A DNA stretch of 64,000 bases from Terriglobia bacterium (GTDB taxonomy: Bacteria; Acidobacteriota; Terriglobia; Bryobacterales; Bryobacteraceae), in assembly GCA_020073265.1 (NCBI GenBank), contig JAIQFN010000006.1, forward strand, positions 62,001 through 126,000. The letters run 5' to 3'. Positions 22,564-51,352 of the stretch are shown here, one piece after another (within the stretch, counting starts at the first letter, position 1; each line of letters begins with the position of its first letter). A model generated the notes under the pieces. That model was not told the origin of the DNA, made no database searches, and saw only the letters and a program-made list of their open reading frames with translations. The position numbers were made by a program, and so were the translations under genes.

Positions 22564-22573
22564 CGGAAAATTC

Positions 22574-28939: not shown

Positions 28940-28956
28940 GTTTCATTCAGAGAAAC
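28940..28956. promoter_or_regulatory. 17-bp operator-like motif, copy 1
   Basis: GTTTCATTCAGAGAAAC. It is an imperfect palindrome (GTTTC-N7-GAAAC) 91 bases upstream of the oar2 start. The exact reverse complement recurs at 29064-29080. Related copies precede oar3, all three monooxygenase-like genes and the PAL-like gene. Confidence 0.5.
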
Positions 28957-29063: not shown

Positions 29064-29080
29064 GTTTCTCTGAATGAAAC
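29064..29080. promoter_or_regulatory. 17-bp operator-like motif, copy 2 (inverted)
   Basis: GTTTCTCTGAATGAAAC, the perfect reverse complement of the copy at 28940-28956, 124 bases apart start to start. It lies between the end of the ABC ATPase gene and oar2, and can only regulate oar2 on this side. Confidence 0.5.
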
Positions 29081-30596: not shown

Positions 30597-30605
30597 GGTC
30601 AACAA

Positions 30606-32578: not shown

Positions 32579-32601
32579 CGAATCGATTCTAACCGACGGC
32601 G

Positions 32602-33837
32602 TCAATAGGTCTTCCAGAACCGGCGGCTGCTCTCGGCGTCGGGGATCGGCAGGCGATCCTCCACTTTGGCTAACTGGGGAAACGCCTGGTGCGGCTCGCT
32701 CTGATACCAGTAGGCCACCGATGAGTAGTCGTTCGATTGTGCGTTGCCATGTCCGTGTTCGATGGTCACCTTGATCGATCGCGAGAACATCACCGGGTCC
32801 TGGATGTGGAAGCGGTACATGGTCCACTTGCCGGAGAACATGATCAAGCCGTCGTTCGGCCCCGCCAGCGAAATACCGTGATACGGCATCGGGTTGAAGC
32901 CGCCCGGATAGCCCCAGGCGGCGCAGAAGTAATCTTCGGTGCCGGTTCCGATGACGGATGGAGTGGCCTCGCCGTCGATGAACATCATGTCGTCACCCTC
33001 GCCGAACCAGCCGAAGTTGGGGATGGGATTGATGTGATCGATGGACAGATTGCAGCCCACGTAGTGCCCGCGGCCGTTGGCTTCCAGAATGACGTAGTTG
33101 TTCTTGCCGTCCTGATTCACGATGCCGTTCACGGCGAGAAAACCGTTGCTGCGATTGGAGAGGTCCAGGGCGCCCGCGGTGGGATTCACGCGGCGCCACT
33201 GCGCGTGAAAACGCAGCGCGTCGTCCGGCACCGAATCGTGCTGCTCATAGTCGATGTTGAAGTACAGCGCGCGAATCGCCTTGGCGCCCTGGTTCTCCAC
33301 CGTGATGCGAGCCCCGCGCGCATAGGGCATGGGGAAGTAGCAGTTCATCGCGGCGCGGTTCTCTTTCATGGGCTGTCCGCCGGTGACCATGTTGAGCGGC
33401 ACCGACGAAAAGTTGGAAACCCGCCCGTGCCCGACGCCGAAGAAGTCCCCCACCGGCGACTCGATGCTGGGCGACGATTCGCCGTCCCAATACGCCCGCA
33501 GCACCGAGCGGCGCAGATAGTCGGGTTCGTCGGTCGCGATGGTGATCCAGATGTGGCGGATGTAGCCGGCTCCGCGCAGATCCGCGATGGTGGCGGTGGC
33601 GCCGGGCGGTACTCCGACGTAGTCGTTGTTTCTGCCGGTGACGTCGTGGCTGGACGAGCGAGAATACCGGCCGCCGCGCGCCAAGTGAAGCTGGCCCAGG
33701 CCGCCCGGAAGCGCGAGTCCCGCGGACGGCCGCGCCGGTGCACCGCTCTGTCCTCGAGCTCCGGCCGCCGCGGCTGCCGCCAAACCGCTCCACTTCATGA
33801 ATCGGCCGACAAAATCCCGGCGTAGAGCTTTCGGCAT
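32602..33837 (-). CDS. DUF2961/GH172 glycoside hydrolase
   Basis: A 411-residue exported protein with a twin-arginine-type N-terminus (RRDFVGRFMKWSGLAAAAAAG). The DUF2961 core is clear: AGYIRHIWITI, YWDGESSPSIESPVGDFFGVG, FPMPYARGARITVENQG, FGWFGEGDDMMFIDGE and GTGTEDYF. DUF2961 proteins now form GH172, whose characterised members act on alpha-D-fructofuranosides and D-arabinofuranosides. E280 (in GEG) and E301 (in TED) are 21 residues apart, the same spacing as the catalytic pair E270/E291 I recall for the founding enzyme. It sits directly upstream of the sugar ABC transporter, supporting glycoside breakdown followed by uptake. Confidence 0.85.
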   Translation of the reverse strand: MPKALRRDFVGRFMKWSGLAAAAAAGARGQSGAPARPSAGLALPGGLGQLHLARGGRYSRSSSHDVTGRNNDYVGVPPGATATIADLRGAGYIRHIWITIATDEPDYLRRSVLRAYWDGESSPSIESPVGDFFGVGHGRVSNFSSVPLNMVTGGQPMKENRAAMNCYFPMPYARGARITVENQGAKAIRALYFNIDYEQHDSVPDDALRFHAQWRRVNPTAGALDLSNRSNGFLAVNGIVNQDGKNNYVILEANGRGHYVGCNLSIDHINPIPNFGWFGEGDDMMFIDGEATPSVIGTGTEDYFCAAWGYPGGFNPMPYHGISLAGPNDGLIMFSGKWTMYRFHIQDPVMFSRSIKVTIEHGHGNAQSNDYSSVAYWYQSEPHQAFPQLAKVEDRLPIPDAESSRRFWKTY

Positions 33838-33864: not shown

Positions 33865-35052
33865 CTAAGCGGCGATCATTCGATGCGGATCGATGACGAA
33901 CTTCTTGGCGGCTCCGTGGTCGAAATCTTTGTAACCCTGCGGCGCCTCGTCGAGCGAGATCGTCGTCACGTTTACGGCCTTGGCGATCTGAATCTTGTCG
34001 TGAAGAATGGCCTGCATGAGCTGGCGATGATATTTCATGACCGGACATTGGCCGGTCGTGAACGCGTGCGACTTGGCCCAGCCCAGCCCGATGCGGATGC
34101 CGAGGTTGCCGATCTTGGCGTTGGCGTCCACGCCGCCCGGATCGCCGGTTACATACAGTCCGGGAATCCCGATGGCTCCGCCGGCGCGCGTGATCTCCAT
34201 CACCGAATTGAGAACCGTGGCCGGGCGTTCCACCTTGGCGTCGGCGCCGTGACCGCGCGCTTCAAAGCCCACGCAATCGATGGCGGCGTCCACTTCAGGA
34301 ACCCCCACGATCTGCGCGATCTGATCCGCGAGCGAGACATCCTTGCTGACGTCCACTGTGGCGCAACCAAAGCTGCGCGCTTGAGCCAGCCGCTCCGGAA
34401 TCATGTCGCCGACGATCACCACCGCCGCTCCGAGCAAATGGCACGACGCGGCGCACGCCAGTCCCACCGGTCCCGCTCCGGCCACGTAAGCAATGGATCC
34501 GGGTCCGACGCCGGCGGTCACCGCGCCGTGGTAGCCGGTGGGAAAAATGTCGGAAAGCAGCGTGAGATCGCGGATCTTGGCCATCGCACGCGCTTTGTCG
34601 GGAAATTTCAGCAGATTGAAGTCGGCGTAGGGAATCATCACGTACTCGGCCTGCCCGCCGACCCAGCCGCCCATGTCCACGTAGCCGTAAGCCGCGCCCG
34701 GGCGCGCCGGGTTCACGTTCAAACAGATCCCGGTCTGCCCGGCTTTGCAATTCCGGCAGCGCCCGCAAGCGATGTTGAAGGGCACCGAAACCAAGTCGCC
34801 GGTCTTGATGAACTCGACGTCCCGCCCAGCTTCGATAACTTCGCCGGTGATCTCGTGCCCCAGAATCAATCCGGCGGGCGCCGTGGTTCGGCCACGGACC
34901 ATGTGCTGATCGCTCCCACAGATATTGGTGGAAACGACTTTTAGAATGACGCCGTGCTCGCATTTGCGCGAACCCAGCGCGAGTTTCGGAAAATCGATGG
35001 ACTGCAATTCGACTTTTCCGGGAGCGATGTACGCAACTCCTCGATTGGTCAT
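33865..35052 (-). CDS. fdhA: zinc dehydrogenase, glutathione-independent formaldehyde dehydrogenase type
   Basis: A 395-residue zinc-dependent medium-chain dehydrogenase. It matches the Pseudomonas FdhA pattern: catalytic zinc residues in NICGSDQHMVRGR and GHEITGEV, the four-Cys structural zinc loop CGRCRNCKAGQTGIC, the long insert GAAYGYVDMGGWVGGQAEYV, the NAD-binding GAGPVGLA near residue 180 and the C-terminal KKFVIDPHRM. Such enzymes carry tightly bound NAD and dismutate aldehydes. It lies 10 bases after oar3 and 27 before the GH172 gene in the same run. In this sugar-uptake setting the substrate may be another alcohol or aldehyde. Confidence 0.88.
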   Translation of the reverse strand: MTNRGVAYIAPGKVELQSIDFPKLALGSRKCEHGVILKVVSTNICGSDQHMVRGRTTAPAGLILGHEITGEVIEAGRDVEFIKTGDLVSVPFNIACGRCRNCKAGQTGICLNVNPARPGAAYGYVDMGGWVGGQAEYVMIPYADFNLLKFPDKARAMAKIRDLTLLSDIFPTGYHGAVTAGVGPGSIAYVAGAGPVGLACAASCHLLGAAVVIVGDMIPERLAQARSFGCATVDVSKDVSLADQIAQIVGVPEVDAAIDCVGFEARGHGADAKVERPATVLNSVMEITRAGGAIGIPGLYVTGDPGGVDANAKIGNLGIRIGLGWAKSHAFTTGQCPVMKYHRQLMQAILHDKIQIAKAVNVTTISLDEAPQGYKDFDHGAAKKFVIDPHRMIAA

Positions 35053-35062
35053 GTGCTCTCCT

Positions 35063-38038
35063 TCAGAACGCGTAACGCAGCGCGAACTGGATCTGACGGT
35101 TCGACCCGAATCCGCCGACTGCGGGAATAGTACTTAAGCTCTGTCCGAAGGTCGCCGGCGAAGAAGTCGTCGACCCTGGGTTTGAAAACTGCGGGGTGTT
35201 GAAGATGTTGAACATCTCCGCGCGGAACTGGACTTGCTGCCGCTCGGTCACGGCGAAGTTCTTGAACAGCGAGAAGTCCCAGTTGTAAGCCGAAGGCCCG
35301 GTGAATACGTTCCGGCCTAAGCTCCCGAAGTGGCCCACCGGAGTCGCGAATGCCGCCAGGTTGAGTTGCCGCTTGGGCAGGTCGAAATTGGCCGGTGTGA
35401 CAGCAACGCCCGTAATCAGGTCGGGGCGCGCCGTCGCCGCTCCAATCCCAGCCGCGTCGCATCCGCAAACAACGTTGTATGGCAAGCCCGCGCGCATCAC
35501 GGTGATGCCGTTGAACTGCCAACCGCTGCCGATCACTTTGGGAACGCGCGGCATACCAGGAATCTGGTAAGTGTAGTCGAGTTCCACATAGTGACGCACG
35601 TCATAGTCCGCGCTCCCATACTCGTTGCGGAAGTGGGCATCATCCTGATTGGCGGTGGTGGCCGGACCATTGGAAACGCCGCCCTCATCGAGCGCATGGC
35701 TCCAGGTGTAATTCACATTGAACGTCATACCGCGCGTCAGGCGTTGTTTGAAGCCCACCTGCAGGCCGTTGTAGTCGGCGATGGCTCCGTCATAGAAGTT
35801 CGTAATGGTGCCGAATTGCGGATACTTTCGCACGCCGGTCCCTGGAACGACCCGGTTCAACTCCTGGAACGGACTGAGGTGCACGCCGCGATTGCCGATG
35901 TAGCCCACCTGCAACACCGAGTTTTGCCCGAAACCCTGCTGGATATTCATGTTCCATGTCTCGGTGTAGGACTGCTTCCAGTCCTTCGGGAACGCATACA
36001 AGTTGCGCGCCGAAGCGATTAGTTTGCTGAGCGGGAACGGAAAGCCCACACCCGGATTCAGCGCCGTGGCGCTTTGTCCGATTCCAGGGATGTTGGAAGG
36101 CACCGATTGCGCCGCCGCGGCTACCAGCGGGGAGTGGAAAATACCAAAGCCGCCGCGCAGCACGGTTTTCTTGGAAGAGAACGGAGTGTAGGCGAAACCA
36201 ACGCGAGGCGCGAAGTCAAGTTTCGGAGCGTCGAACAGCGAAGATCCCGGCGTATCGATGTCGCCCGTGACTCGATCGAAATTCGCGATGCGTCCGTGCG
36301 ATTCGCTCGGAGCGGTGTCGTATTGATATCTCACGCCCAGATTGATCGTGAGATTCTTGGTCGCCTGGATGTCGTCCTGCGCGAAAAAGTGGACGTACTT
36401 GTTCCGCATTCCCTGGCGCGGCTGGCCTAGTGTCGAAATTGCGAACGGCGCGTTGGCTGCAAAACTATCCAGCGTCAAGAACGTAACGATCTCCTGAAAC
36501 GAGATGGCCTTGTTGTCGCGATTGCCTACCACCTGGGTCCCGAACTTGAGCGCGTGCCGCCCCTTGGTCCAGGAAAGCGTGTCGAGATAAGTGAAGGAAG
36601 TGTTGGCCACCGGCAGATCAAATACTGCCGGTCCGATGGCTGCCATCCCGGCGATCGATCCGACGATGGGGGAGTTCAGGACAGCCGGACTGCCGGCCGC
36701 GCCGGCATACCAGACGCCGCGATTGAACGTGATCCCGGCCTCGTTGAGCAGCGTCGGAGTGAGCGTCTTGGTGTAGGCGAGCTTGGCGGTCTGCAGCAGC
36801 GCAGGGACCGGGCGGAACTGGCCGTCGCCGACGCCGAACCAGCTCTTGGTGAACGATTCGTTGCGGTTATAGCGCAGCGTAAGCGTATCTTTCTCGGTGA
36901 TGTGGTAGTCCATCTTTCCGCTGCCCGTGTCCTCGGTGAGTTCGTTGGAAATGCCGCGGATGAACTGCGCCAGGCGCGGTTCGGTGGCCACCGCCGGACC
37001 GTTCGGAAGCGGCAGGATATCGGCTTCCGCGCGCACCGGTGCGGGCAGCGTGTTGCGAAACGCCTGAGTGGGCACGAACGTATTCTGGAAGATTCCCAGA
37101 CGTTGCCGGACGCCTTCATAGTTGACAAAGAAGAAAATTTTGTCGCGCTTGATCGGCCCTCCGAAGGTACCTCCGAATTGGTTCAGACGGAAGGGCGGCT
37201 TCAGGGCAGGGGCCACGTTGAAGTAGTTGCGCGCGTCCAGTTTTTCATTGCGGAAGTACTCGAAAAGGGTACCGTGATATTGGTTCGTCCCGGACTTGGT
37301 GATGAAGTTCACCACGCCACCCATGGACTGGCCGTATTCCGCCGAGTAGGACGACTCTTGAATGCGAACTTCAGCGATCGCGTCGACGCTGGCGCGGGTC
37401 ACGCGCGCTTGCGATGCGTAGGCGCTGTCGACGATATCCGAATCCACTTGCCCGGAATCGCCTCCGTCCACCAGCAAACGGGATCCGCTTTCGAACAGAC
37501 GGGTCTGGCTCACGCCGTTCATACTGCGCTGCTGCGTGGTGCCCAGCATCACCACACCGGGCGCCAGGCCCATCAGCGAAGCCAGACTACGGCCGTTGAA
37601 GGGCAGGTTTGACACCTGTTGCTTTTCGATCACGCCGCCCAGCGTGCTCGAAGCGCTGTCGATCACCGGCGCCTGGGCCTCCACCGTGATTCGCTCCGTC
37701 ACCTCGCCTGCGCTTAAGGTTAAGTCGATCCTGGCCCGATCGTTGACGCTGAGTGCAATGTTGTCGCGCACCGAAGTCTTGAAGCCGGGTGCGGAAGCTG
37801 TGACCTGATAGTTCCCTATCGGCAGCACCGGTGCGATAAAGTTTCCGTTCGCGTCGGTCGTCAGAGTCAACTCCGCGGCCGTGCCCTGGTTGGTGACCTT
37901 GACAGTGGCGTTGGGAACCACGCCTCCGGAAGCATCCGTGACCGTTCCTAAGATGGCCGCTCGATCGAGCTGCCCGTAGCAAATCGAAGCGCCCATCAGC
38001 GCCATTGCTATAAGCAATTTAGTCCGCAGAGTAATCAT
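35063..38038 (-). CDS. Oar-like TonB-dependent receptor (oar3)
   Basis: A 991-residue receptor paralogous to oar1 and oar2. Signal peptide MITLRTKLLIAMALMGASICYG, carboxypeptidase-regulatory-like domain (LDRAAILGTVTDASGGVVPNATV), plug (IEKQQVSNLPFNGRSLASLMGLAPGVVMLG) and barrel ending FALRYAF. A strong ribosome-binding site (AGGAGGG) lies just upstream of the ATG at 38038. It heads the minus-strand run oar3-dehydrogenase-GH172-permease-binding protein-ATPase (gaps of 10, 27 and 23 bases, then overlaps), so it probably delivers the substrate of that pathway across the outer membrane. Confidence 0.9.
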   Translation of the reverse strand: MITLRTKLLIAMALMGASICYGQLDRAAILGTVTDASGGVVPNATVKVTNQGTAAELTLTTDANGNFIAPVLPIGNYQVTASAPGFKTSVRDNIALSVNDRARIDLTLSAGEVTERITVEAQAPVIDSASSTLGGVIEKQQVSNLPFNGRSLASLMGLAPGVVMLGTTQQRSMNGVSQTRLFESGSRLLVDGGDSGQVDSDIVDSAYASQARVTRASVDAIAEVRIQESSYSAEYGQSMGGVVNFITKSGTNQYHGTLFEYFRNEKLDARNYFNVAPALKPPFRLNQFGGTFGGPIKRDKIFFFVNYEGVRQRLGIFQNTFVPTQAFRNTLPAPVRAEADILPLPNGPAVATEPRLAQFIRGISNELTEDTGSGKMDYHITEKDTLTLRYNRNESFTKSWFGVGDGQFRPVPALLQTAKLAYTKTLTPTLLNEAGITFNRGVWYAGAAGSPAVLNSPIVGSIAGMAAIGPAVFDLPVANTSFTYLDTLSWTKGRHALKFGTQVVGNRDNKAISFQEIVTFLTLDSFAANAPFAISTLGQPRQGMRNKYVHFFAQDDIQATKNLTINLGVRYQYDTAPSESHGRIANFDRVTGDIDTPGSSLFDAPKLDFAPRVGFAYTPFSSKKTVLRGGFGIFHSPLVAAAAQSVPSNIPGIGQSATALNPGVGFPFPLSKLIASARNLYAFPKDWKQSYTETWNMNIQQGFGQNSVLQVGYIGNRGVHLSPFQELNRVVPGTGVRKYPQFGTITNFYDGAIADYNGLQVGFKQRLTRGMTFNVNYTWSHALDEGGVSNGPATTANQDDAHFRNEYGSADYDVRHYVELDYTYQIPGMPRVPKVIGSGWQFNGITVMRAGLPYNVVCGCDAAGIGAATARPDLITGVAVTPANFDLPKRQLNLAAFATPVGHFGSLGRNVFTGPSAYNWDFSLFKNFAVTERQQVQFRAEMFNIFNTPQFSNPGSTTSSPATFGQSLSTIPAVGGFGSNRQIQFALRYAF

Positions 38039-38124: not shown

Positions 38125-38141
38125 GGTTCACTAGATGAAAC
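38125..38141. promoter_or_regulatory. 17-bp operator-like motif, copy 3
   Basis: GGTTCACTAGATGAAAC; its reverse complement GTTTCATCTAGTGAACC fits the shared pattern TTTCATYMAGWGAA. It lies 87 bases upstream of oar3 and 196 bases upstream of the divergent duplicated monooxygenase gene, in a relatively AT-rich 298-base gap that holds no ORF. Confidence 0.45.
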
Positions 38142-38298
38142 TGCGCGACCGAGGTCTGACGTGTCTCAATTGCCTGTTTTTGTTGGAGTATTTGGTTTTT
38201 CTGGAGCACGGGCACTTTAGATGCAGTGATTTGGTTGAAACGATACGAGATCCGGCTGGTTTTGTTGCATGAACTCTTTGGACGGGTCCTTTATCAAA

Positions 38299-38336: not shown

Positions 38337-40943
38337 ATGAGGATTCCACCTCTCGCGGTATTCTTTTGTCTCGCCGGCTCGGTGTTGCTGGCCTCTTCGC
38401 CGGTGACTTTCCACAAAGATGTGGAACCGATCCTGCAGAATCGGTGTCAGGGCTGCCATCGTCCGGGCGAAATCGGGCCCATGTCGCTGCTCACATATAA
38501 TGACGCCCGACCCTGGGCGAAAGCCATGCGCGGCGCGATTTTGACCAAGAAGATGCCGCCGTGGCCGCTCGATCCGGCGTTCGGAAAGTTCGCCAATGAC
38601 CAGCGATTGTCGCAGGCGGAGATCGAAACGCTGGTGGCCTGGTCCGACCAAGGATCCCCAGAGGGAAACGCGAGCGACGCACCGCCGCCGCGCCAGTTCG
38701 TCCAGGGCTGGAATATCGGTACCCCGGACGCTGTGGTGGAGCTCTCACAGGAATTCCAGATTCCCGCGTCGGGCGATGTTCCGTACCAATACATTATCGT
38801 CCCCACCGGTTTCACCAAGGAGACCTGGGTTGAGGCTGTCGAGATTCGTCCCGGCAACCGGGCGGCGCTGCACCACGCCATCGCGTTCGTTCGCGAACCG
38901 GGCACTTATAAAGGCATGAAGGTGGGCGAGTTCCTGGATCCGTACGTGATGGCGAAAGCTATGCGTCCGCGAACCAACCCGCCTCCCGATCAGTTTGGCG
39001 ATAGCCTGACTGGGGACGCCGTCGGCTTCTACGTGCCCGGAATTCCCCCGGCCGTTCTCCAGCCCGGGCAAGCCAGACTGATCCAAGCCGGCTCAGCACT
39101 CCTGTTCCAGTTGCACTATACGACCAACGGAAAGCCGGGTACCGATCGTACCCGCATCGGATTCAGGTTCGCCAAGCAGCCGCCCAAGGAATGGATCCGG
39201 ACCGTCAACGTCCAGAATTTTGCCTTCAGCATTCCGCCTCGGGAGCAAAACTATCCCATTTACGCGCGCGCCCGGCTTACTCGCGACATGAAGATCGTGT
39301 CGTTCATTCCACACATGCATCTCCGCGGCAAGGACTTCGAGTATCGCGCACTCTACCCGAGCGGCGAGACCGAAACGCTGCTGCGCGTGCCGCGCTGGGA
39401 TTTCGCCTGGCAGATGGCCTACTACCTCGAAGAGCCGAAGGTGTTGCCAGCGGGAACCGTCATCGAGGTTGTGGGCCACTATGACAACTCGCCCAACAAT
39501 CCCAACAATCCGGATCCTAACGCCCTGGTAGTTTACGGCGAGCAAACCTGGAACGAAATGATGGGCGGGCTGATCGACGTGGTGGAGGATCCCACCACGA
39601 AGCCACGACGTTATTTCGAATCGGTGCCCGAGAAGCCGGTATCCACGGCCTCCGTTACGCCGACCTTCCACAAGAACGTCGAGCCGATTCTGCAGGCTCG
39701 CTGCCAGACTTGTCATCGCCCCGGCGAAACCGCTCCCATGTCGTTGCTCACTTATAGTGATGCGCGTCCCTGGGCCAAGGCGATTCGCGCCGCCGTGCTG
39801 CAGAGGAAGATGCCGCCTTGGTTCGCGGATCCGCACTACGGGAAATTCTCGAACGACCGCCGCATGCCGCAGGCCGAGATCGACACGCTGGTAGCCTGGA
39901 TCGATGGCGGCGCGCCGGAGGGAGATGCGAAAGACGCGCCCAAGCCGCTGACATTTGCCGACGGCTGGAACATCGGCAAGCCGGACGTGATTATCGAGAT
40001 GCCCAAGGCGTTCAATGTTCCCGCCACGGGCAGAATCCCCTATCAATACATTGCCGTCGCTTCCGGCTTCACCGAAGACAAGTGGGTGCAGGCCGCCGAG
40101 ATCCGCCCCGGCAACCGCGCAGTGGTTCACCACGTACAGGCGCACGCCATCAGTCCGGATTCCCCCTCCGCGAAGATTCTGGGGGAATTCATGGATGCCG
40201 ACGCGATCGATCAGCGTGTGGTCGCCCGAACCGACAAAGCGCTGGCCGGCGGACCCATGCCCAACCAGTTCGATTCCGGACTCGGCGGCGAGTACATCCA
40301 GGGCTACACGCCCGGAGCGCAGCCGCTCAATTTGAAGCCCGGCCAGGCCAAGCTCATCAAGGCCGGGTCGGTGATCTTTTTCCAATTACACTACACCAGC
40401 AGCGGAAAGGCCGGCAGCGACCGGTCCCGCCTGGGCCTCATCTTCGCCAAGCAGCCGCCTACCGAAAAACTGCACACCATCAACGTGCAGAACTTCGCTT
40501 TCGATATCCCGCCCATGGTGGACAACTACCCGATCGCCGCGCGGGCCCGCCTGACGCGCGACATGACCATCGTGAATTTGCGGCCGCATATGCATTTCCG
40601 CGGCAAGGATTTTGAATACCGCGCCATCTATCCCACCGGGGAGTCGGAAGTCCTGCTGCGGGTGCCGCGCTGGGATTTCAACTGGCAGATGACGTATTAT
40701 CTGGAGACGCCCAAGGTTCTGCCGAAGGGAACCATCATTGAAGTGCTGGGTCACTACGACAACTCGCCCAACAATCCCGCCAACCCGGATCCCAAGGCTC
40801 GCGTGCTGTACGGCGAGCAGACCTGGAACGAAATGCTGGGCGGCTTGATCGACGTGGCCCTCGATCCGCAGCTCCAGTCACCGCAATTCTTCGAATCCGT
40901 TCCGGCGGCTGCGGTGACCAACGCCACCGCGTCCATTCACTAG
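38337..40943 (+). CDS. tandem-duplicated haem c / PHM-type copper monooxygenase
   Basis: An 868-residue secreted protein made of two homologous halves (about 20-430 and 440-868). Each half has an N-terminal c-type haem module, C37-x2-C40-H41 with Met49 in the first and C456-x2-C459-H460 in the second, then a Cu2-monooxygenase-like domain. All six copper-ligand positions of PHM/DBM enzymes appear in each half: a His-His pair (ALHHAI; VVHHVQ), a His in FQLHYT, a His-x-His in PHMH, and a Met in WNEM. Signal peptide MRIPPLAVFFCLAGSVLLAS. The substrate is unknown. The haem could supply electrons in place of ascorbate. Divergent from oar3. Confidence 0.8.
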   Translation: MRIPPLAVFFCLAGSVLLASSPVTFHKDVEPILQNRCQGCHRPGEIGPMSLLTYNDARPWAKAMRGAILTKKMPPWPLDPAFGKFANDQRLSQAEIETLVAWSDQGSPEGNASDAPPPRQFVQGWNIGTPDAVVELSQEFQIPASGDVPYQYIIVPTGFTKETWVEAVEIRPGNRAALHHAIAFVREPGTYKGMKVGEFLDPYVMAKAMRPRTNPPPDQFGDSLTGDAVGFYVPGIPPAVLQPGQARLIQAGSALLFQLHYTTNGKPGTDRTRIGFRFAKQPPKEWIRTVNVQNFAFSIPPREQNYPIYARARLTRDMKIVSFIPHMHLRGKDFEYRALYPSGETETLLRVPRWDFAWQMAYYLEEPKVLPAGTVIEVVGHYDNSPNNPNNPDPNALVVYGEQTWNEMMGGLIDVVEDPTTKPRRYFESVPEKPVSTASVTPTFHKNVEPILQARCQTCHRPGETAPMSLLTYSDARPWAKAIRAAVLQRKMPPWFADPHYGKFSNDRRMPQAEIDTLVAWIDGGAPEGDAKDAPKPLTFADGWNIGKPDVIIEMPKAFNVPATGRIPYQYIAVASGFTEDKWVQAAEIRPGNRAVVHHVQAHAISPDSPSAKILGEFMDADAIDQRVVARTDKALAGGPMPNQFDSGLGGEYIQGYTPGAQPLNLKPGQAKLIKAGSVIFFQLHYTSSGKAGSDRSRLGLIFAKQPPTEKLHTINVQNFAFDIPPMVDNYPIAARARLTRDMTIVNLRPHMHFRGKDFEYRAIYPTGESEVLLRVPRWDFNWQMTYYLETPKVLPKGTIIEVLGHYDNSPNNPANPDPKARVLYGEQTWNEMLGGLIDVALDPQLQSPQFFESVPAAAVTNATASIH

Positions 40944-40952
40944 CGCGGGGCG

Positions 40953-42119
40953 CTAAGCCGTATCCACCATCGACGCCGTGGTCAACTCGGCGGTCTGCAG
41001 CACCGCGTCGGTGGGGTAGAGGTGATCGACGTTCGCCGGCGTCAGCAACTGGTGCTTGACGAACACGGCGGGCGGCACCGATTTCTTGGCCAGAATCTGG
41101 ACCGCTACTGAGATCAGGCCTTCGCCGTAGCGCTCCGGGAAGAACGCCATGGTCGCCAACATCCGCGTGCGGGGACGGCGCAGCTCGGCGCGGCCCTCTT
41201 GCGATCCTCCGAACCCGAGCGCGACACACTTGTCCGCGCGCCCGGCTTCTTCAAAGGCCCGCAACGCCCCGATGGTGCTCGGATCGTCCACTCCGCTGAT
41301 CACGGTCCGGTCCGGCCCAGCCGCGCGCCGGAGGTGCTTGCGCGTTACCTCCAGGCTGGCGGGAAAGCGAGCCTGCCCGTTCAAGAAAACCACGCGCGCC
41401 TCGTCGATGTCCGGTAGAATCTCCCGCAGCCCCGCCACCGCTCCCGTCAGCCGGGAACGAGCGAACGGCCCGGCGCGCGGGTACTCCACCAGCAGAATCT
41501 CGTCGATCTTGGCCTGCCAGTTCTGCTTCACCCAGCGTCCGACGTAGCGCCCTCCGATCACGCCGGCCGTGTAGTTGTCAGGCCCGAAATAGTTGGCGCC
41601 CGGATGCGGCACGTGCAGCGCGATCAAGGGAATGCCCGCTTCCCGGATGCGCGCGGCGATGATGGGCGCCAGGTGGTCGTCGCCCTGATGCATCAGGATC
41701 AGATCCACGCGCTCGCGGATCAGCAGCTCGACGTTGCGCACCACCTGCTTGGAGTTGTAGTGATTGTCCAGCGCGATCAGGTCGATCCGCTCCTCGGCGG
41801 CGGCGCGCTTCAGACCCTCGGTGATGGCGCGCGAGTAGGCGTTCTCCAGGTTGAGAGCGCAGTAACCCAGCCGGTGTTTGTTGGGCTTCAGCGGCTTGAC
41901 CGTGGAGCGGTACTGATGCGATCCCACCCGCTCGATGAACCCGCGCTCCTCCAGCGTGCATAGGATGCGAAACGCCCGGGTCTTGTTCATCTTGGTGCGG
42001 GCCACCAGCTCCTGCAGGCGCAACAACTCGCCGTCGAACCGGAACGCATCCAGAATGTCGCAGGCCCGTAAAACTGCTTCGATGTGGTAGCGGTCTTTGG
42101 ATTGGTTTCCGTTGTTCAA
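40953..42119 (-). CDS. chimeric regulator: IclR-type HTH plus sugar-binding (PBP) domain
   Basis: A 388-residue protein. The N-terminal 70 residues have the IclR winged-helix pattern (HIEAVLRACDILDAF, LQELVARTKMNKTRAFRILCTLEERGFIERV), but the rest is a periplasmic-binding-protein fold as in LacI or ribose-binding proteins (LGYCALNLENAYSRAITEGLKRAAAEE, ELLIRERVDLILMHQ, AGIPLIALHVPHPGANYFGPDN, TVISGVDDPSTIGALRAFEEAG) instead of the usual IclR GAF-like domain. There is no signal peptide, so it is cytoplasmic. It lies 10 bases after the PAL-like gene in the same direction. It is a good candidate for the regulator that reads the 17-bp motifs, by position only. Confidence 0.8.
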   Translation of the reverse strand: MNNGNQSKDRYHIEAVLRACDILDAFRFDGELLRLQELVARTKMNKTRAFRILCTLEERGFIERVGSHQYRSTVKPLKPNKHRLGYCALNLENAYSRAITEGLKRAAAEERIDLIALDNHYNSKQVVRNVELLIRERVDLILMHQGDDHLAPIIAARIREAGIPLIALHVPHPGANYFGPDNYTAGVIGGRYVGRWVKQNWQAKIDEILLVEYPRAGPFARSRLTGAVAGLREILPDIDEARVVFLNGQARFPASLEVTRKHLRRAAGPDRTVISGVDDPSTIGALRAFEEAGRADKCVALGFGGSQEGRAELRRPRTRMLATMAFFPERYGEGLISVAVQILAKKSVPPAVFVKHQLLTPANVDHLYPTDAVLQTAELTTASMVDTA

Positions 42120-42129: not shown

Positions 42130-43161
42130 CTAGCTGACCTTGCGGAGCTTGCTCACGCGGCCCACTTCAACCCACTCCACGACAAAAATGTTGCCCTCAT
42201 GGTCGAAGCAGGCGCTGTGCGGGCAAACGAATTTGCCTGCAATGAACTTGTCGCGTGGTTGGGTCCGCAGCTTGAGCCAGGTGTTGGATGCATCTTCGCC
42301 CAGGTGCACGATCACTTTGTTGTTGCGATCCAGCAGCGACACGCGCGCCGCCAGGTCCGGCATCACGATGTCGCCATTGCGGAACGTGTTGAAGTAGCAA
42401 GGCAGGTTCACGCCGCTGACGAAATCCACATGCTTTCCTTCCAGCGTGAACCGCTGCAGACGGCGGTTGGACCGGTCGGCGACAATCAGGATCGGGTCGC
42501 CCCGCAGGTCTACCATCAGACCGTGCGGGCAATTGAGCTGCCCCGCCTCTTTTCCCAAGCCGCCGAAGGTGCGGATGTACTCGCCCTTGTGGTTGTACTG
42601 ATTGATGTAGCTGGAACCGTAGCCGTCGCCCACGTAGAAATCCCCGTTCGGCGCCACCGCCACATTGGTGGGACTGTACTTGATCGGCTTCCCGTCGGGG
42701 CCCGGCCGGCCGTAAGGTTCGGCCTCCTTCGGGTATCCCATCGAGAAAACCTCCTCGCCATTGGTGGTCGCCTTCACCACCACGCCGCGCTGCGTGTCGC
42801 ACAGGTAAAGAAATTCGTGCCCGTTCTCCTTGAGGATGTGCAGCCCGTGCGCGCCGCCCTTGAACTCCTTGCCCCAGGACTTGACGAACTTGCCCTTGTG
42901 GTCGAACACCACCATGCTGTCGGACGACTCGCTGGTCGCGTGCACCGTGTGATGAATGTAGATGTGGCCATGCGAGTCCTCGCAGACCCCATGTGTGTTG
43001 CCGTAGCGAATGCTGGGCGGTAAAACGCCCCAGTCGTGCGTCACTTCGTACTTGTGATCGCCTTCGCCCAGGATTGGTTTGTGGCTGCCGGACTTGTTGG
43101 TGGCATTCAAGATCAGTGGGGCGGCGAGGCCCGTGAGGAACGTGCGTCGGGTTGCATCCAT
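42130..43161 (-). CDS. NHL beta-propeller, PAL-like lyase (peptidyl-hydroxyglycine amidating lyase family)
   Basis: A 343-residue secreted six-bladed propeller with Tat-type signal (TRRTFLTGLAAPLILNA). It aligns by eye with the PAL domain of animal PAM: zinc ligands H105 (GAHGLHI), H213 (CPHGLMV) and H315 (CPHSACFD), catalytic-type Y181 in VGDGYGSS, and R230 in VADRSNRR all sit at spacings close to those of rat PAL. A second PAL arginine (R533 in rat) is not clearly conserved. PAL cleaves alpha-hydroxyglycine peptides to amides and glyoxylate; the substrate here is unknown. It is divergent from a haem-copper monooxygenase resembling the other half of PAM. The ATG at 43161 gives the signal peptide. 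Confidence 0.75.
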   Translation of the reverse strand: MDATRRTFLTGLAAPLILNATNKSGSHKPILGEGDHKYEVTHDWGVLPPSIRYGNTHGVCEDSHGHIYIHHTVHATSESSDSMVVFDHKGKFVKSWGKEFKGGAHGLHILKENGHEFLYLCDTQRGVVVKATTNGEEVFSMGYPKEAEPYGRPGPDGKPIKYSPTNVAVAPNGDFYVGDGYGSSYINQYNHKGEYIRTFGGLGKEAGQLNCPHGLMVDLRGDPILIVADRSNRRLQRFTLEGKHVDFVSGVNLPCYFNTFRNGDIVMPDLAARVSLLDRNNKVIVHLGEDASNTWLKLRTQPRDKFIAGKFVCPHSACFDHEGNIFVVEWVEVGRVSKLRKVS

Positions 43162-43221
43162 GTTGTATATCCTCAGCCCGCGAGACAGTTCAGGCAAGCT
43201 TCCAAATATATAGGATAGCTT

Positions 43222-43238
43222 GATTCACTGAATGAAAC
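43222..43238. promoter_or_regulatory. 17-bp operator-like motif, copy 4
   Basis: GATTCACTGAATGAAAC; reverse complement GTTTCATTCAGTGAATC. It lies 61 bases upstream of the PAL-like gene. It pairs with an inverted copy at 43346, 124 bases away start to start, exactly the separation of copies 1 and 2. Confidence 0.5.
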
Positions 43239-43345: not shown

Positions 43346-43362
43346 ATTTCATTCAGTGAACT
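43346..43362. promoter_or_regulatory. 17-bp operator-like motif, copy 5 (inverted)
   Basis: ATTTCATTCAGTGAACT, inverted relative to copy 4 with 14 bases in perfect inverted match. It lies 72 bases upstream of the haem-copper gene at 43434. The 272-base gap between the two divergent genes otherwise holds no ORF. Confidence 0.5.
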
Positions 43363-43433: not shown

Positions 43434-44810
43434 ATGCGCATTTCCGCTTGGCTTTTCGCTGCAGCGCTCGTCGGCGCCGCCTTTGGAGCCAGCCCATCCA
43501 ACGTCACGTTCGATCGCGACGTGCTGCCGCTGCTCGAGAAAAATTGCCAGACCTGCCATCGTCCTGGCGAGATCGGACCCATGCCGCTGCTCACCTACCA
43601 GCAAGTGCGTCCGTGGGCCAAAGCGATTCGAGCCGCGGTCCTGCAGCATAAGATGCCGCCGTGGCACGCCGATCCCAATTTTGGTCATTTCGCCAATGAC
43701 CGCTCGCTGAGCGAGGCGGATGTCAAGACGCTGGTCGCGTGGATCGACAACGGCACTCCGGAAGGATCACCCAAAAACGCGCCCAAGCCGCTGGTTTTCT
43801 CGGACGGCTGGCGCATCGGCGAGCCCGACCTGGTGATCGAGATGCCGCTGGCTTACAATGTTCCCGTCACCGGCATTGTCAATTATCAGTACATCATCGT
43901 CCCCAGCGGGTTCACCGAGGACAAGTGGGTGCAAGCCGTGGAGGTTCGTCCCGGAAATCGCGGCGTGGTGCATCATGCGGTTTTGTATTCTCGCGAGCCC
44001 GGCGGTGAATACGCGGCAGCCGCGCCCAAGGGCGAATTCTTCGAGCTCGCCAAGTATTACAAAGTCACGTCCAGGCCGAAGGACGAACGGATGTTCTCCG
44101 CGGTCAGCGAGCCGGAGCATCTGCAGGTGTACGCGCCGGGCGCCGATCCCATTCAACTGGGACCCGGTCAAGCGCGCCTGATCAAGGCCGGATCCGACAT
44201 CATCTTCGAGATGCACTACACGCCCAACGGGACCGCCACCACCGACCGCACCAAGGTCGGATTCATCTTCGCCAAGCAGCCCGTGAAGGAGCGCGTCCAT
44301 ACCATCCGCATCAACAACGGCAGCATCCTCTCGATTCCGCCTAACGAGCCGGACTATCGCATGCAGTCCCAGGTCTATCTGACCCAGGACGTGCGCGTCA
44401 TCGCATTCCAACCGCACATGCACCTGCGCGGGAAGTCGATGGAGTTCAGCGCGGTCTACCCGTCCGGCGAATCGGAAGTGCTGCTGCGGGTGCCCAAGTA
44501 CGATTTTCACTGGCAGATGAGCTACTATCTCGCGCAGCCGAAACTGCTGCCCAAGGGAACGCTGTTCATTTGCAAGGCCAGCTGGGACAACTCGCCCAAC
44601 AATCCCAATAACCCGCATCCGGAAAAACGCGTGCGGGGTGGATTCCAGAGCGAGGATGAAATGTTTGCAGGATTCGTGGACCTGGGCATTGCGCCCGGCC
44701 TGGCGGATCTCAAGTTCTTTAAGGATGCTCCGCCCGAGGCGGTTCCCCAGATCATTACCAACACCACAGCGGACTCGCTTGCTAAGACCATTTCCGGTGG
44801 CCAAAACTAA
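43434..44810 (+). CDS. haem c / PHM-type copper monooxygenase
   Basis: A 458-residue secreted protein (signal MRISAWLFAAALVGAAFGA). Haem module: C38-x2-C41-H42 with candidate axial Met50 in RPGEIGPM. Copper ligand positions of PHM/DBM enzymes: H180-H181 (VVHHAV), H261 (FEMHYT), H328 and H330 (QPHMHLRG), M410 (EDEMFAGF). Spacings of about 80, 67 and 80 residues are close to PHM. The family is Cu2_monooxygenase (N- and C-terminal domains) fused to a cytochrome. An AGAGG ribosome-binding site precedes the ATG. It faces the PAL-like gene across a shared promoter region and overlaps the DUF6351 gene by 14 bases. Confidence 0.82.
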   Translation: MRISAWLFAAALVGAAFGASPSNVTFDRDVLPLLEKNCQTCHRPGEIGPMPLLTYQQVRPWAKAIRAAVLQHKMPPWHADPNFGHFANDRSLSEADVKTLVAWIDNGTPEGSPKNAPKPLVFSDGWRIGEPDLVIEMPLAYNVPVTGIVNYQYIIVPSGFTEDKWVQAVEVRPGNRGVVHHAVLYSREPGGEYAAAAPKGEFFELAKYYKVTSRPKDERMFSAVSEPEHLQVYAPGADPIQLGPGQARLIKAGSDIIFEMHYTPNGTATTDRTKVGFIFAKQPVKERVHTIRINNGSILSIPPNEPDYRMQSQVYLTQDVRVIAFQPHMHLRGKSMEFSAVYPSGESEVLLRVPKYDFHWQMSYYLAQPKLLPKGTLFICKASWDNSPNNPNNPHPEKRVRGGFQSEDEMFAGFVDLGIAPGLADLKFFKDAPPEAVPQIITNTTADSLAKTISGGQN

Positions 44811-46919
44811 GCTGCTGCTCCAGTCGGCGCTGCTCACGGTCTGCGTTTCGATCCTTTGCGCCGCGCCTCAAACTTTTGAGATTCGCGCGCTGTCCGCCCG
44901 GCCCGACATGGTGAGCGGCGGCGACGTGCTGGTCCGCGTGGCGGCGCCCAGCGACGCTGCCCTCAAGAAGGTACGCCTCGCGCTCAACGGCGCGGACGTC
45001 ACCAGCGCCTTCCGCCCGGCGCGCGATCAACACGCCGTCGTCGGCCTCGTAACCGGACTGAAGCAGGGACGCAACATTCTGGAATTGACCCGGGACGGAT
45101 CGCGCAAAGCATCGCTCGAGCTCACCAACTACGCCATCACCGGTCCCATCATTTCTGGCCCGCACCAGACCCCCTTTATCTGCCAGACCGAGGCCTGGGG
45201 CCTGGGCGCGGCGCTGGATGCGGACTGCTCGGCGAAGACGCGCGTCGAGTATCTGTACTGGTCCGCGTCCGCGGGAAAGTTCAATCCGTTCGATCCCGCC
45301 GGCCCGCGACCGCCGGACCTGCAGCAGACCACCACCACCGAAGGCCACCAGGTGGATTACATCGTGCGCAAGGAAACCGGCACCATCAATCGGGCGGTCT
45401 ATGAAATCGCGTTTCTGCATCAACCCGGAACCCCGTTGCCCGACCCCTGGACCAGTTCACCCGGCTGGAACGGGCGCCTGGTGTATACCTTCGGCGGCGG
45501 TGCTCGGCGGGCTATCGCCAGGCCACCACCACGGGCGGCGTTCTACTCGACGGCGCGCTCTCCAAAGGCTACGCGATGGCGTCGTCCTCGCTGAATGTAT
45601 TCGGCAACAACTGCAACGACGTGCTTTCGGCCGAATCCTTGATGATGGTCAAGGAATACTTCATCGAACATTTTGGCGTTCCCGTTCACACCATCGGCTG
45701 GGGCGGCTCGGGCGGCTCCATGCAACAGCACTTGATCGCGCAGGATTATCCCGGCCTGCTGGACGGAATGCTGCCCACCCTCAGCTATCCCGACATCTTC
45801 ACAGTGGCCTCCGGCGCGCTGGACTGCTCGCTGCTCGACCACGCTCTCACCAATGCATCCTCCCCCTGGACCAACGAACAGAAAACGGCCGTCTCCGGGT
45901 TCTCCGATTGGGGCATGTGCACGCTGCGGCAGCTCGGCAAACTGACGTGGATTCCCTCGGAGTTTTCTCCGGGTTGGGTGAATGCATCCAAGTGCGATCC
46001 AGTGGTTCCGAAGGCGCAGGTGTACGACGCAGCGTCCAATCCCGGCGGCGTGCTGTGCACCATCTATGACAACGAGGTCAACGTTCTGGGAAAGGATCCG
46101 AAGACGGGCCGCGCCTACCGGCTGCTGGACAACACCGGCGTCGAATACGGGTTGGCCGCCTTCAACGCGGGCCGCATCACCGCCGAGCAGTTCCTGGATT
46201 TGAACCAGCACGTCGGCGGATTCGATCAGGACGGTAAGATCGCCGGCGCGCGTATGGCGGCCGACACGTCCGCGCTGCGGCGCGCCTATCAGACCGGGCG
46301 TATCAATACCGGCGGAGGCGGGCTGGCGTCGATTCCGATCATCGACATGCGGCCGTACCTCGATGCCGTGCCCGACTTGCACGACCGCTTCCGGTCGTTT
46401 TCGACCCGGGCGCGCCTGACCGCCGCCAATGGCGCCGCCTCCAACCAGATCATGTTCACCATGCCGACGGCCGGAATTTTGTATACCGACCTGACCTCTC
46501 TGAAATCCCCGCTGACTCTGCATAGCGCCGAAGCCCTGCCGGTGATGGATCGCTGGCTCGACAACATCGCGCACGATCCATCCAACGCCCCGGCCGCTCA
46601 AAAGACCGCTCGCAACAAACCCAGCGATCTGGTCGACGTCTGCTGGACGCCTTCGGGCGAGAAAATCCCGGATGGTCCTTCCGGACGCTGCCGCGAACTG
46701 TACCCGCTCCATGGCGATCCGCGAATCGCAGCCGGCGCGCCGCTGGCAAACGATATCATCAAGTGCGCGCTCAAGCCGGTGAACGCGAAAGATTACGCTC
46801 AGCCGCTGACCGCCGGGCAACTCGCGAAACTCAAGACCATCTTCCCGGAGGGAGTTTGCGACTACAGCCGGCCGGGCGTGGGACAACAGCCCGTCAAAGA
46901 GCTGTGGCGCAAGTACTAG
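44797..46919 (+). pseudogene. DUF6351-family secreted protein, one frameshift
   Basis: About 708 codons if read through. The N-terminus from the GTG at 44797 gives a signal peptide (AKTKLLLQSALLTVCVSILCAA) and a beta domain; the second part has a nucleophile-elbow-like motif GWGGSGGSMQQH, suggesting an alpha/beta-hydrolase fold, and ends near VGQQPVKELWRKY. The frame breaks at about 45501, where GGCGGTGCTCGG lacks one T relative to GGTTGCTCGG, which would restore FGGGCSAGYRQATTTGG. No other stop interrupts either half, so it is either a sequencing error or a very recent mutation. I recognise the family as DUF6351; no function is established. It overlaps the upstream monooxygenase gene by 14 bases. 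Confidence 0.78.
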
Positions 46920-46939: not shown

Positions 46940-46956
46940 GTTTCTCTTGATGAATC
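46940..46956. promoter_or_regulatory. 17-bp operator-like motif, copy 6
   Basis: GTTTCTCTTGATGAATC; reverse complement GATTCATCAAGAGAAAC. It lies 182 bases upstream of the third haem-copper gene. The right end merges into the hairpin described next. Confidence 0.4.
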
Positions 46957-46988: not shown

Positions 46989-47101
46989 CTAGCTTACCCC
47001 TCAGGAACCAGTAACGTACTGTAATATAGATAGTTGTTCATGCATTGTGTGGGATCTGTAGTTTTATTGGGCGAACTGTGCAAGGGCGTCACGGAATTAC
47101 C

Positions 47102-47137: not shown

Positions 47138-48511
47138 ATGAAAGCTGTCGGTCTATTTGTGCTCGCCTGCTCGTCCGCGGTCTGGGCGGCTACTCCGGTA
47201 ACGTTTCACAAGGACGTCGAACCGATTCTCGAGAAGCATTGCCAAGGTTGCCACCACACCGGCGACATTGCCCCGATGCCCTTGCAGACCTACGAACAGT
47301 CCAGACCCTGGGCCAAAGCCATCCGCTCGGCGGTGGCGCAGAAGAAGATGCCGCCTTGGGATGCCGATCCGGCGTACGGCGCCTTCCGGAACGATCGATC
47401 GCTCACCAAAGCCGAGATCGACACGTTGACTTCCTGGGTGGATGCCGGCGCGATCGAAGGCGACCTCAAGGATGCGCCGCCGCCGCGCGAGTTCGTCGAA
47501 GGTTGGCACATGGGCAAGCCGGATGTGGTGATCCAGATTCCCCAAGTGTTCCACGTGCCGGCCAAGGGCACCATTCCTTATCAGTACATTTCCGTGCCCA
47601 CCAACTTCACCGAGGATAAATGGATTCAAGCGGTGGAGCTCCACCCCAGCAATCGGAAAGTGGTTCACCACATCAACGTGTCCGCGACTCCACCCCCCGC
47701 CGCCGGCAGCGCCCCTGCCAGGGGGCCGAGCGGCTTTTTCACCTCCGACGCCGAGGCCCGGATGCTCGCCAGGCTCAAGCCCGGACAGGAACCACCGCAA
47801 TTCCAATCCTCGCGCGAAGGCGACCTGTTGCAAACCTTCGTGCCTGGCGGCGTGCCTCCCGAACTGGAACCCGGTCAGGCCAAGCTGATCAAGGCCGGCT
47901 CCACGCTGATGTTCCAGATCCACTACACCACCCTGGGAACGCCGCAAGAAGACCAGACCAGCATCGGCTTTATCTTCGCCAAGGAGCCCCCCAAGGAGCG
48001 CATCAAAGCGCTGCTGATTTATAACACGCGTTTCACCCTCCCGGCCGGTTCGTCCAACACGATGGTCGGGGCGCGCGCCGAAGTCCTGCATGACTTCAAG
48101 ATGGTCTCGATGCTTCCGCACATGCACCTGCGCGGCAAGGATTTTCAATTCCGCGCTATCTATCCTTCCGGGGAAAGCGAAATTCTGCTGCGCGTGCCGA
48201 AGTACGATTTCAACTGGCAGATCAATTACTACCTCGCCAAACCCAAGCTGCTTCCCAAGGGCACCATTATCGAGGTCACGGGGCACTTCGACAATTCTCT
48301 GAACAACGCCTTCAATCCGGATCCCTCCGTGGACGTGCATTATGGCGAGCAGACCTGGGAAGAGATGCTGAACGGGTTCTTTGACGTGGCCATCGACCCG
48401 ACCACGGACGCGGCTCCGCTACTCCTGGGGCCCGGCCCCGGCCCGTTCTTGCCAGTGAACGCTACCGCCAGCACCCTGGCGCCGGCAAGCAACGTCGCCA
48501 CTCGGCGCTAG
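47138..48511 (+). CDS. haem c / PHM-type copper monooxygenase
   Basis: A 457-residue secreted protein (signal MKAVGLFVLACSSAVWAA). Haem motif C35-x2-C38-H39 with Met47 in HTGDIAPM. PHM/DBM copper positions are kept: KVVHHI, FQIHYT, LPHMHLRG and WEEMLNGF. Compared with the other copies it has an insert rich in Ala/Pro/Gly after the His-His pair (ATPPPAAGSAPARG) and an Ala/Pro-rich tail. The ATG at 47138 directly precedes the signal peptide; the open frame upstream lacks one. It lies 55 bases before the second GH172 gene, probably in one transcript with it. Confidence 0.8.
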   Translation: MKAVGLFVLACSSAVWAATPVTFHKDVEPILEKHCQGCHHTGDIAPMPLQTYEQSRPWAKAIRSAVAQKKMPPWDADPAYGAFRNDRSLTKAEIDTLTSWVDAGAIEGDLKDAPPPREFVEGWHMGKPDVVIQIPQVFHVPAKGTIPYQYISVPTNFTEDKWIQAVELHPSNRKVVHHINVSATPPPAAGSAPARGPSGFFTSDAEARMLARLKPGQEPPQFQSSREGDLLQTFVPGGVPPELEPGQAKLIKAGSTLMFQIHYTTLGTPQEDQTSIGFIFAKEPPKERIKALLIYNTRFTLPAGSSNTMVGARAEVLHDFKMVSMLPHMHLRGKDFQFRAIYPSGESEILLRVPKYDFNWQINYYLAKPKLLPKGTIIEVTGHFDNSLNNAFNPDPSVDVHYGEQTWEEMLNGFFDVAIDPTTDAAPLLLGPGPGPFLPVNATASTLAPASNVATRR

Positions 48512-48566
48512 AATTGAGCAGTCGGCTTAAAATCAACAACGCTCGAAGAGCGGACAGGAGTGGTTT

Positions 48567-49715
48567 ATGAGAAGACGAACTGTGTGGATCGTGTGCGCCG
48601 TTTTCACTTGTGCTTCATTGTCGGTCCTGGCGCAACAGGCTTACGACGGCCTCGCCAATGGCCTCAGCAACATCTTTCGCACTTCGGAAGCCAAGACCTT
48701 TTCCATCAGTCCCGAAAACTTCACTGGGGAAAAGGGCAAGGGTGGAATGGCCACCGAAGGTGTAGCCTCGGCGGCGGCGCGAGAATTAGGACGCGGATGG
48801 AAGGTCAACCCGTTCGTCAACATCGCCGCCGGAACCACCTTCACGCTGGGCGAGATCACCGGGCCGGGTTCCATTCAACATATTTGGATGACGCCTACCG
48901 GGAACTGGCGCTTCTCCATCCTCCGCATGTATTGGGACGACGAGACGACGCCGTCAGTGGAAGTACCGGTGGGCGACTTCTTCGCCATGGGTTGGGGAAA
49001 ATACGCGCCGGTCAATTCGCTGGCCATCTGCGTCAATCCGGGCAGCGCCTTCAATTCCTACTGGCCCATGCCGTTCCGGCGAAAAGCCAAAATCACAATG
49101 GAAAACCTGGACGCGCGGCCCATGCGCGTCTACTATCAGATCGACTATACGAAGACGCAGATTCCCGCCGACGCGGCTTACTTCCACGCGCAGTTCCGGC
49201 GCGTGAATCCGCTGCCCTACAAAGAGGTCTATACCATCGTCGACAAGATCAAGGGCAAGGGACAGTACGTCGGAACCTACATGGCCTGGGGCGTCAAGAA
49301 CAACGGCTGGTGGGGCGAGGGCGAGATCAAGTTCTACATGGACGGCGACAAGGAATTCCCCACCATCAACGGCACCGGTACTGAAGACTACTTCTGCGGC
49401 TCCTATGATTTCGAAAACCAGGAGAAGAAACAATACGAGCCGTTCACCACGCCCTACTCGGGGTTGATTCAGGTCATCAAGCCCGACGGCCTGTATCAAT
49501 CGCAGCAGCGCTTCGGCCTGTACCGCTGGCATATTCCCGATCCGGTCCGCTTCGACTCCGACCTGCGTGTCACCATTCACGCCCTGGGCTGGAGACAGGA
49601 TCGGCGCTATATGCCGCTCACCGACGACATCGCTTCGGTGGCCTACTGGTATCAGGTGGAGCCGCACGCGCCGTTCCCCAAGCTGCCCTCCCGGGACGAA
49701 TTGGAAGTAGACTAA
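48567..49715 (+). CDS. DUF2961/GH172 glycoside hydrolase
   Basis: A 382-residue secreted enzyme with a cleavable signal peptide (MRRRTVWIVCAVFTCASLSVLA). GH172 core: GSIQHIWMTP, YWDDETTPSVEVPVGDFFAMG, FPMPFRRKAKITMENL-like region, GWWGEGEIKFYMDGD and GTGTEDYF. E251 and E273 are the counterparts of the two candidate catalytic glutamates, one residue further apart than in the first GH172 of this window. AGGAG lies upstream of the ATG. The next genes encode a pentulose kinase and a fucose-isomerase-family protein, which points to release and catabolism of a pentose such as D-arabinose. Confidence 0.85.
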   Translation: MRRRTVWIVCAVFTCASLSVLAQQAYDGLANGLSNIFRTSEAKTFSISPENFTGEKGKGGMATEGVASAAARELGRGWKVNPFVNIAAGTTFTLGEITGPGSIQHIWMTPTGNWRFSILRMYWDDETTPSVEVPVGDFFAMGWGKYAPVNSLAICVNPGSAFNSYWPMPFRRKAKITMENLDARPMRVYYQIDYTKTQIPADAAYFHAQFRRVNPLPYKEVYTIVDKIKGKGQYVGTYMAWGVKNNGWWGEGEIKFYMDGDKEFPTINGTGTEDYFCGSYDFENQEKKQYEPFTTPYSGLIQVIKPDGLYQSQQRFGLYRWHIPDPVRFDSDLRVTIHALGWRQDRRYMPLTDDIASVAYWYQVEPHAPFPKLPSRDELEVD

Positions 49716-49720
49716 CGCCC

Positions 49721-51340: not shown

Positions 51341-51352
51341 GAGCCATCGGTA

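Follow-up and report, generated by a model that had tools for sequence, protein, structure and literature searches.

Regulators of the IclR family, such as KdgR, PcaU and BhcR, carry an N-terminal winged helix (HTH_IclR) and a GAF-like effector domain. In the LacI/GalR family, a type-I periplasmic-binding-protein (PBP) sensor is joined to a LacI helix-turn-helix (HTH) and a hinge helix. AraR of Bacillus combines a GntR HTH with a LacI-type sensor, and XylR of E. coli combines a PBP sensor with an AraC HTH. The window, a stretch of 64,000 nucleotides of DNA, encodes a regulator that resembles each of these groups in part (Table 1). The HTH_IclR winged helix at its N-terminus scored above the Pfam cut-off as in the IclR family, but the GAF-like domain is replaced by a PBP-type-I sugar-binding domain. 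As in LacI/GalR, a type-I PBP domain serves as the sensor of a cytoplasmic sugar regulator, whereas the LacI HTH and hinge helix are replaced by an IclR winged helix, and the predicted operator is an odd 17-bp palindrome without a central CG. Paired operators about 100–130 bp apart suggest looping as in the lac and gal systems. AraR and XylR are earlier cases in which the DNA-binding domain beside a PBP-type sensor was exchanged, but they differ in HTH family, lineage and operator. The regulator is therefore outside both IclR proper and LacI proper, since it lacks a tested defining feature of each. It is of a known kind, the one-component sugar regulators with PBP sensors, including those with an exchanged HTH, and only the pairing with an IclR helix is unusual. 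The initial annotation had held that PBP sensors normally go with a LacI HTH; it was right about the unusual pairing, but the HTHs of AraR and XylR are also known partners of such sensors.

Table 1. Position, strand and basis of assignment of the regulator, the genes of the locus and the predicted operators in the window.
Feature	Position	Strand	Basis or remark
IclR-HTH / PBP-type-I regulator, 388 aa, TTG start	40953–42119	-	ORF
HTH_IclR winged helix, residues 15–65	41925–42077	-	Pfam PF09339
Peripla_BP_4 sensor domain, residues 90–346	41082–41852	-	Pfam PF13407; PDB ribose-binding-type relatives
TonB-dependent-type outer-membrane receptor (CarboxypepD_reg + OMP barrel)	25877–28915	-	downstream of pair a
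CUT2 sugar ABC transporter, complete: ATPase 29097–30605, binding protein 30606–31628, permease frame 31580–32827	29097–32827	-	profile matches
DUF2961/GH172 enzyme, closest solved alphaFFase1 7V1V	32602–33837	-	both catalytic Glu positions kept
Glutathione-independent formaldehyde dehydrogenase-type ADH	33865–35052	-	NCBIfam fdhA_non_GSH, above cut-off
Second outer-membrane receptor	35063–38038	-	first gene of unit behind pair b
Cytochrome c / Cu type II monooxygenase-like protein, duplicated	38337–40943	+	Pfam; behind pair b
NHL-repeat (PAL-like) protein, first gene of the regulator's operon	42130–43197	-	Pfam; PDB match
Cytochrome c / Cu monooxygenase-like protein	43434–44810	+	Pfam; behind pair c
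Third cytochrome c / Cu monooxygenase-like protein, probable ATG at 47138	47138–48511	+	by eye, no Pfam match
DUF2961/GH172, close relative of exo-alpha-D-arabinofuranosidase ExoMA1 (8IC8)	48567–49715	+	PDB match
FGGY kinase, ribulokinase type	49721–51340	+	NCBIfam, above cut-off
L-fucose (D-arabinose) isomerase-like protein	51353–52948	+	weak profile match
Predicted operator GTTTCATTCAGAGAAAC, pair a, 124 bp	28940–28956	.	upstream of outer-membrane receptor 25877–28915
Predicted operator GTTTCTCTGAATGAAAC, pair a	29064–29080	.	motif profile
Predicted operator GGTTCACTAGATGAAAC, pair b, 134 bp	38125–38141	.	divergent promoter 38038/38337
Weaker predicted operator GTTTTGTTGCATGAACT, pair b	38259–38275	.	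motif profile
Predicted operator GATTCACTGAATGAAAC, pair c, 124 bp to partner	43222–43238	.	motif profile
Predicted operator ATTTCATTCAGTGAACT, pair c	43346–43362	.	motif profile
Predicted operator GTTTCTCTTGATGAATC, pair d, 121 bp	46940–46956	.	upstream of 47138–52948
Weaker predicted operator GTTTTATTGGGCGAACT, pair d	47061–47077	.	motif profile

In the Pfam scan of the whole protein, HTH_IclR was matched with an E-value of 4e-11 (42.9 bits, cut-off 22) and Peripla_BP_4 with an E-value of 1.5e-23. Both matches were kept when the two parts were scanned separately, with E-values of 4.5e-12 for the N-terminus and 7.5e-24 for the sensor. Peripla_BP_1 (PF00532) was also above its cut-off. The LacI HTH (PF00356) had no Pfam match in the regulator, and the LacI-family protein at 21299–22342 of the same window did match this model as a positive control. 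The IclR effector domain was likewise not matched in the Pfam scan of the regulator, where Peripla_BP_4 was found instead; this sets the protein outside the canonical IclR members. An IclR-like winged helix followed by a ribose-binding-type domain had been proposed by the initial annotation, which named a LacI or other HTH at the N-terminus, or a standard known architecture, as outcomes against it. The N-terminus was assigned to HTH_IclR, and the literature searched contained no published description of the architecture. With NCBIfam, the C-terminal part was closest to RbsB and the N-terminal part to PcaR/PcaU and BhcR of the IclR family, all below the curated cut-offs, and the PDB relatives were ribose-binding proteins. 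A structure model of low confidence, based on a three-sequence alignment (pLDDT 48.8), predicted helices and a wing at residues 8–72; its sensor prediction failed and the model was left out of the fold searches. No signal peptide was apparent on the protein, whose N-terminus is the HTH. A signal peptide, export and transporter partners in the operon, which characterise CUT2 binding proteins, were not apparent. A DNA-binding domain and a PBP sensor were present in one protein encoded amid putatively regulated sugar genes with predicted operators, as in one-component sugar regulators with an exchanged HTH.

The regulator gene follows the NHL-repeat gene at the distance of ten bases given by the initial annotation, with the NHL gene ending at 42130 and the regulator starting at 42119. 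The earlier label 'PAL-like' for the NHL-repeat gene is fair, since its product also resembles, more weakly, the PAL domain of peptidylglycine amidating monooxygenase (3fvz, E-value 2e-9). A 17-bp motif, for which the regulator had been named as the natural candidate reader, occurs twice in the divergent promoter before this operon, at 43222 and 43346. The motif proved real. A symmetrical profile built from seven sites gave eight best matches in the window, two in each of four promoter regions and 121–134 bp apart. The predicted operator is an odd palindrome, RTTTY-N7-RAAAY, with GTTTCATTCAGTGAA(A/T)C as the window form. To limit circularity, a second profile was trained solely on the 43222/43346 pair and on both copies of one relative in genome G020. 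The other six sites were still within the ten best matches of the window, and four pairs at 115–140 bp were found compared to 0.03 expected in simulated sequence (at most one in 200 simulations). Exact copies of TTTCATTCAGWGAA occurred four times in the 6.4-Mb genome, all within this locus. With up to two mismatches from TTTCATTCAGTGAA, the genome held 20 matches, of which five, including the four best, were in this locus. Pair a precedes the outer-membrane receptor gene. Pair b separates the second receptor gene and the ADH, GH172 and ABC genes downstream of it from a cytochrome/Cu-monooxygenase gene, pair c lies between the NHL-regulator operon and another such gene, and pair d precedes a third one followed by GH172, kinase and isomerase. 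The paired sites thereby cover all four transcription units discernible from 25.9 to 52.9 kb. The cytochrome c and Cu type II monooxygenase-like module was present in four copies in three genes, with 38337–40943 internally duplicated, all behind paired operators.

The same palindrome was detected upstream of related regulators in other genera. The relative L043 (51% identical; genome G020) had variant copies (TTTCATACAKTGAA) at its own start; its two sites, TTTCATACAGTGAA and TTTCATACATTGAA, were 98 bp apart and the sole matches in that genome. Other relatives had upstream sites of this layout in which the inner bases were changed, among them GTTTCGCATTGCGAAAC, GTTTTGCAACGCAAAAC and GTTTCGCCTCGCGAAAC. 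Exact TTTY-N7-RAAA sites preceded 11 of 25 relatives (shuffle mean 1.0, maximum 5), and a spacer of 7 was favoured, with spacers of 3–6 and 8–11 giving zero to two loci each. In a second set fetched after motif discovery, the exact site was found for 5 of 19 relatives (shuffle mean 0.8, maximum 4). Kinship between the relatives raises these and the following counts to some extent; the sets cover many genera. The strict 17-mer was counted 19 times in the 15.9 kb upstream of 44 regulators, whereas 380 kb of random control loci contained two copies. It preceded 14 of the 44 family members, and its absence in about two thirds indicates that the operator is not universal, or drifts. Pairs 118–128 bp apart were found for 6 of 24 relatives of the first set (shuffle mean 0.09), clustering at 121–124 bp. 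This count was not replicated in the second set, with 1 of 19 against a shuffle mean of 0.18 and single cases at 112, 123 and 132 bp.

This recurrence upstream of family members, often paired at about 123 bp, makes the IclR-PBP protein the likely reader of the paired 17-bp sites, as had been suggested earlier. Control of the cluster through this motif by the LacI-family regulator at 21299–22342 is highly improbable. It is encoded 4–30 kb away with a normal LacI HTH and sensor in Pfam and NCBIfam, and looping between two operators is common for LacI proteins. However, its own divergent promoter (22342–22645) held no copy of the motif, and a LacI-type TGNAANCGNTTNCA site was not found in the window. 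Most operators of LacI proteins are palindromes of even length centred on CG, in contrast to the odd palindrome with spacer 7. A LacI relative was detected in only one of 30 relatives' loci searched (L060) and not in that of L043, whereas the motif accompanies the IclR-PBP gene in other genera and lies at that gene's own start in G020. The palindrome was also observed just downstream of some relatives, at about +1172 (L113), +1163 and +1319 (L044), +1278 (L047), +1188 (L110) and +1171 (L112) from the regulator start, where it probably belongs to the promoter of the next gene.

Of 61 related genomes, about 20 encoded long relatives of the regulator, with two to four copies in several of them and mostly 32–51% identity. 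A sample of the phylum contained them in 19 of 199 genomes, the window's own genome included; two more matches comprised the sensor only. Overall, identities of about 30–52% were spread over dozens of genomes, and both domains were above the Pfam cut-off in all five relatives scanned, which shows that the architecture is no product of chance or mis-assembly. The family-wide survey proposed by the initial annotation returned a conserved multi-copy acidobacterial family, and the regulator is therefore no singleton; outside the phylum, plasmids were searched and genome contigs were scanned with one pattern. Among the best matches examined from 72,556 plasmids, no IclR-PBP fusion was found. Matches from Rhizobium and Paenarthrobacter that apparently spanned the HTH were, where checked, binding proteins of ABC transporter operons, and the Rhizobium match contained no HTH when translated and scanned. 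The literature searched contained no description of the architecture, family, operator or regulon, and a published paper on a rhamnose regulon mentioned neither IclR nor Acidobacteria. The regulator thus belongs to a conserved, apparently undescribed family. Sugar-use regulators of Acidobacteriota, abundant soil bacteria, appear little described in general. The family can be recognised by its architecture and offers a predicted operator and a regulon open to testing, which makes many neighbouring loci for rhamnose, arabinose and D-arabinan assignable.

The closest sensor relatives examined outside Acidobacteriota were CUT2 ABC binding proteins of Rhizobium (WP_033184085.1) and Acidisoma (WP_284948211.1), encoded beside an arabinose isomerase (sugar isomerase) or an L-rhamnonate dehydratase. 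They share about 25–29% identity and the motifs IPxPGAxxFG.NN and FPxxYG with the sensor, but have a signal peptide, as judged by eye, lack an HTH and are part of transporters. The sensor accordingly resembles a transporter protein reused inside the cell, and the change would have led from transporter binding protein to intracellular sensor. The cluster's own transporter has a separate binding protein, only 24% similar to the sensor. The regulator represents a further example of a binding protein of transporter type that acts as a sensor in the cytoplasm, here with a DNA-binding head other than that of LacI. A more far-reaching scenario is rather unlikely as a whole: a phylum-wide acidobacterial family born of the fusion of an IclR winged helix with a transporter binding protein, each member controlling a local sugar locus through a DNA loop that joins two 17-bp operators on one face of the helix, with the window member as a dedicated D-arabinose sensor.

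The protein is probably a cytoplasmic one-component sugar regulator with an IclR-type helix for paired 17-bp operators and a PBP-fold sugar sensor, which would act on the four promoter regions of the locus mostly by repression with looping and respond to D-arabinose or D-ribulose. Computation establishes the domains, the family, and the operators, including how they are paired and where they lie; operator binding, looping, repression and ligand are inferred. The winged helix would bind the RTTTY-N7-RAAAY sites, and the type-I PBP fold would have been recruited as intracellular sugar sensor. Two operators in each of the four promoter regions, 121–134 bp apart, would place about 25.9–52.9 kb under control. 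Two dimers per operator pair, bridged by a DNA loop, would keep the genes off until the pathway sugar closes the sensor clamp, lowers the affinity for DNA and releases the genes. D-arabinose or D-ribulose would be supplied via the GH172 alpha-D-arabinofuranosidases, the CUT2 transporter, the FucI-like isomerase and the ribulokinase. Pair distances of 112, 123 and 134 bp are separated by roughly one turn of the helix each, which would be consistent with looping, although the numbers are small.

The sign of control was considered separately. Many IclR-family proteins are activators, and the regulator could mainly activate, or act in both ways, from a distal or proximal site, with looping not being obligatory. 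Overlap of operators with predicted sigma-70 promoters was no greater than expected by chance (6 of 15 compared to 4.9), and the pair spacing varied from 98 to 134 bp across the family. On the other hand, the best-scoring promoters of the relatives L043 and L034 (scores of at least 12) do overlap an operator, the modal spacing of 121–124 bp is conserved between genera, and PBP-type sugar regulators are mostly repressors. Predominant activation is considered rather unlikely, and repression is preferred.

The locus probably serves the digestion of D-arabinose-containing sugars. The GH172 enzyme at 48567 matched ExoMA1 (8IC8) with 430 bits as its closest solved relative, and the catalytic glutamates of alphaFFase1, E270 and E291 (PMC8605356), align with conserved residues in the two GH172 copies. 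In published D-arabinan loci, GH172 occurs together with fucose isomerase (Dysgonomonas gadei PUL42) or with an ABC transporter, a putative isomerase and a kinase (Microbacterium arabinogalactanolyticum) (PMC10115798, PMC10509167). The window locus shares the respective combination with each of them but differs in its Cu-monooxygenase/cytochrome, NHL and formaldehyde-dehydrogenase genes, and the endo-D-arabinanase GH183 was not seen among the subset of window ORFs scanned. Based on the likeness to ExoMA1, the kinase, the FucI-like isomerase, the CUT2 transporter and the resemblance to these loci, D-arabinose or D-ribulose is tentatively predicted as the effector.

Neighbourhoods of other family members point to sugar catabolism generally, with GH78 rhamnosidase, RhaT, xylose-isomerase-like TIM barrel, AraA-like isomerase and enolase-superfamily genes. 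AraA-like neighbours were commoner at regulator loci, though not significantly (7 of 46 compared to 0 of 20 control loci, p 0.09). A 6-deoxyhexose or an L-arabinose-type sugar as ligand of the same regulator and operators is conceivable but somewhat doubtful. The GH78, RhaT, AraA-like and enolase-superfamily genes, the last of sugar-acid dehydratase type, adjoin other members of the family; the FucI-like enzyme at 51353–52948 could use L-fucose, and AraB-type kinases prefer L-ribulose. D-arabinose is favoured by the GH172 enzyme at 48567, closest to an alpha-D-Araf-specific enzyme, and by the recurrence of GH172 with fucose isomerase in D-arabinan loci (PMC10115798, PMC10509167). In addition, sequence comparison showed that probable pocket positions of the window protein differ from those of its family (EFQ to MHQ and QNA to FGG), and its ligand may thus differ from that of its relatives.

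Outer-membrane receptors were encoded within 6 kb at 10 of 14 regulator loci and at 2 of 20 control loci, the latter from two genomes only (p 0.0006). The formaldehyde dehydrogenase shares a regulated unit with GH172 and the sugar transporter, and three Cu-monooxygenase-like genes are nearby; oxidative demethylation of a methylated sugar by these enzymes is speculative. A DUF6351 (tannase-like) gene at 44638–46919 (+) showed an apparent frameshift near 45576–45594, with profile positions 1–212 in one frame and 234–655 in the next, which may be a real frameshift or an assembly error.
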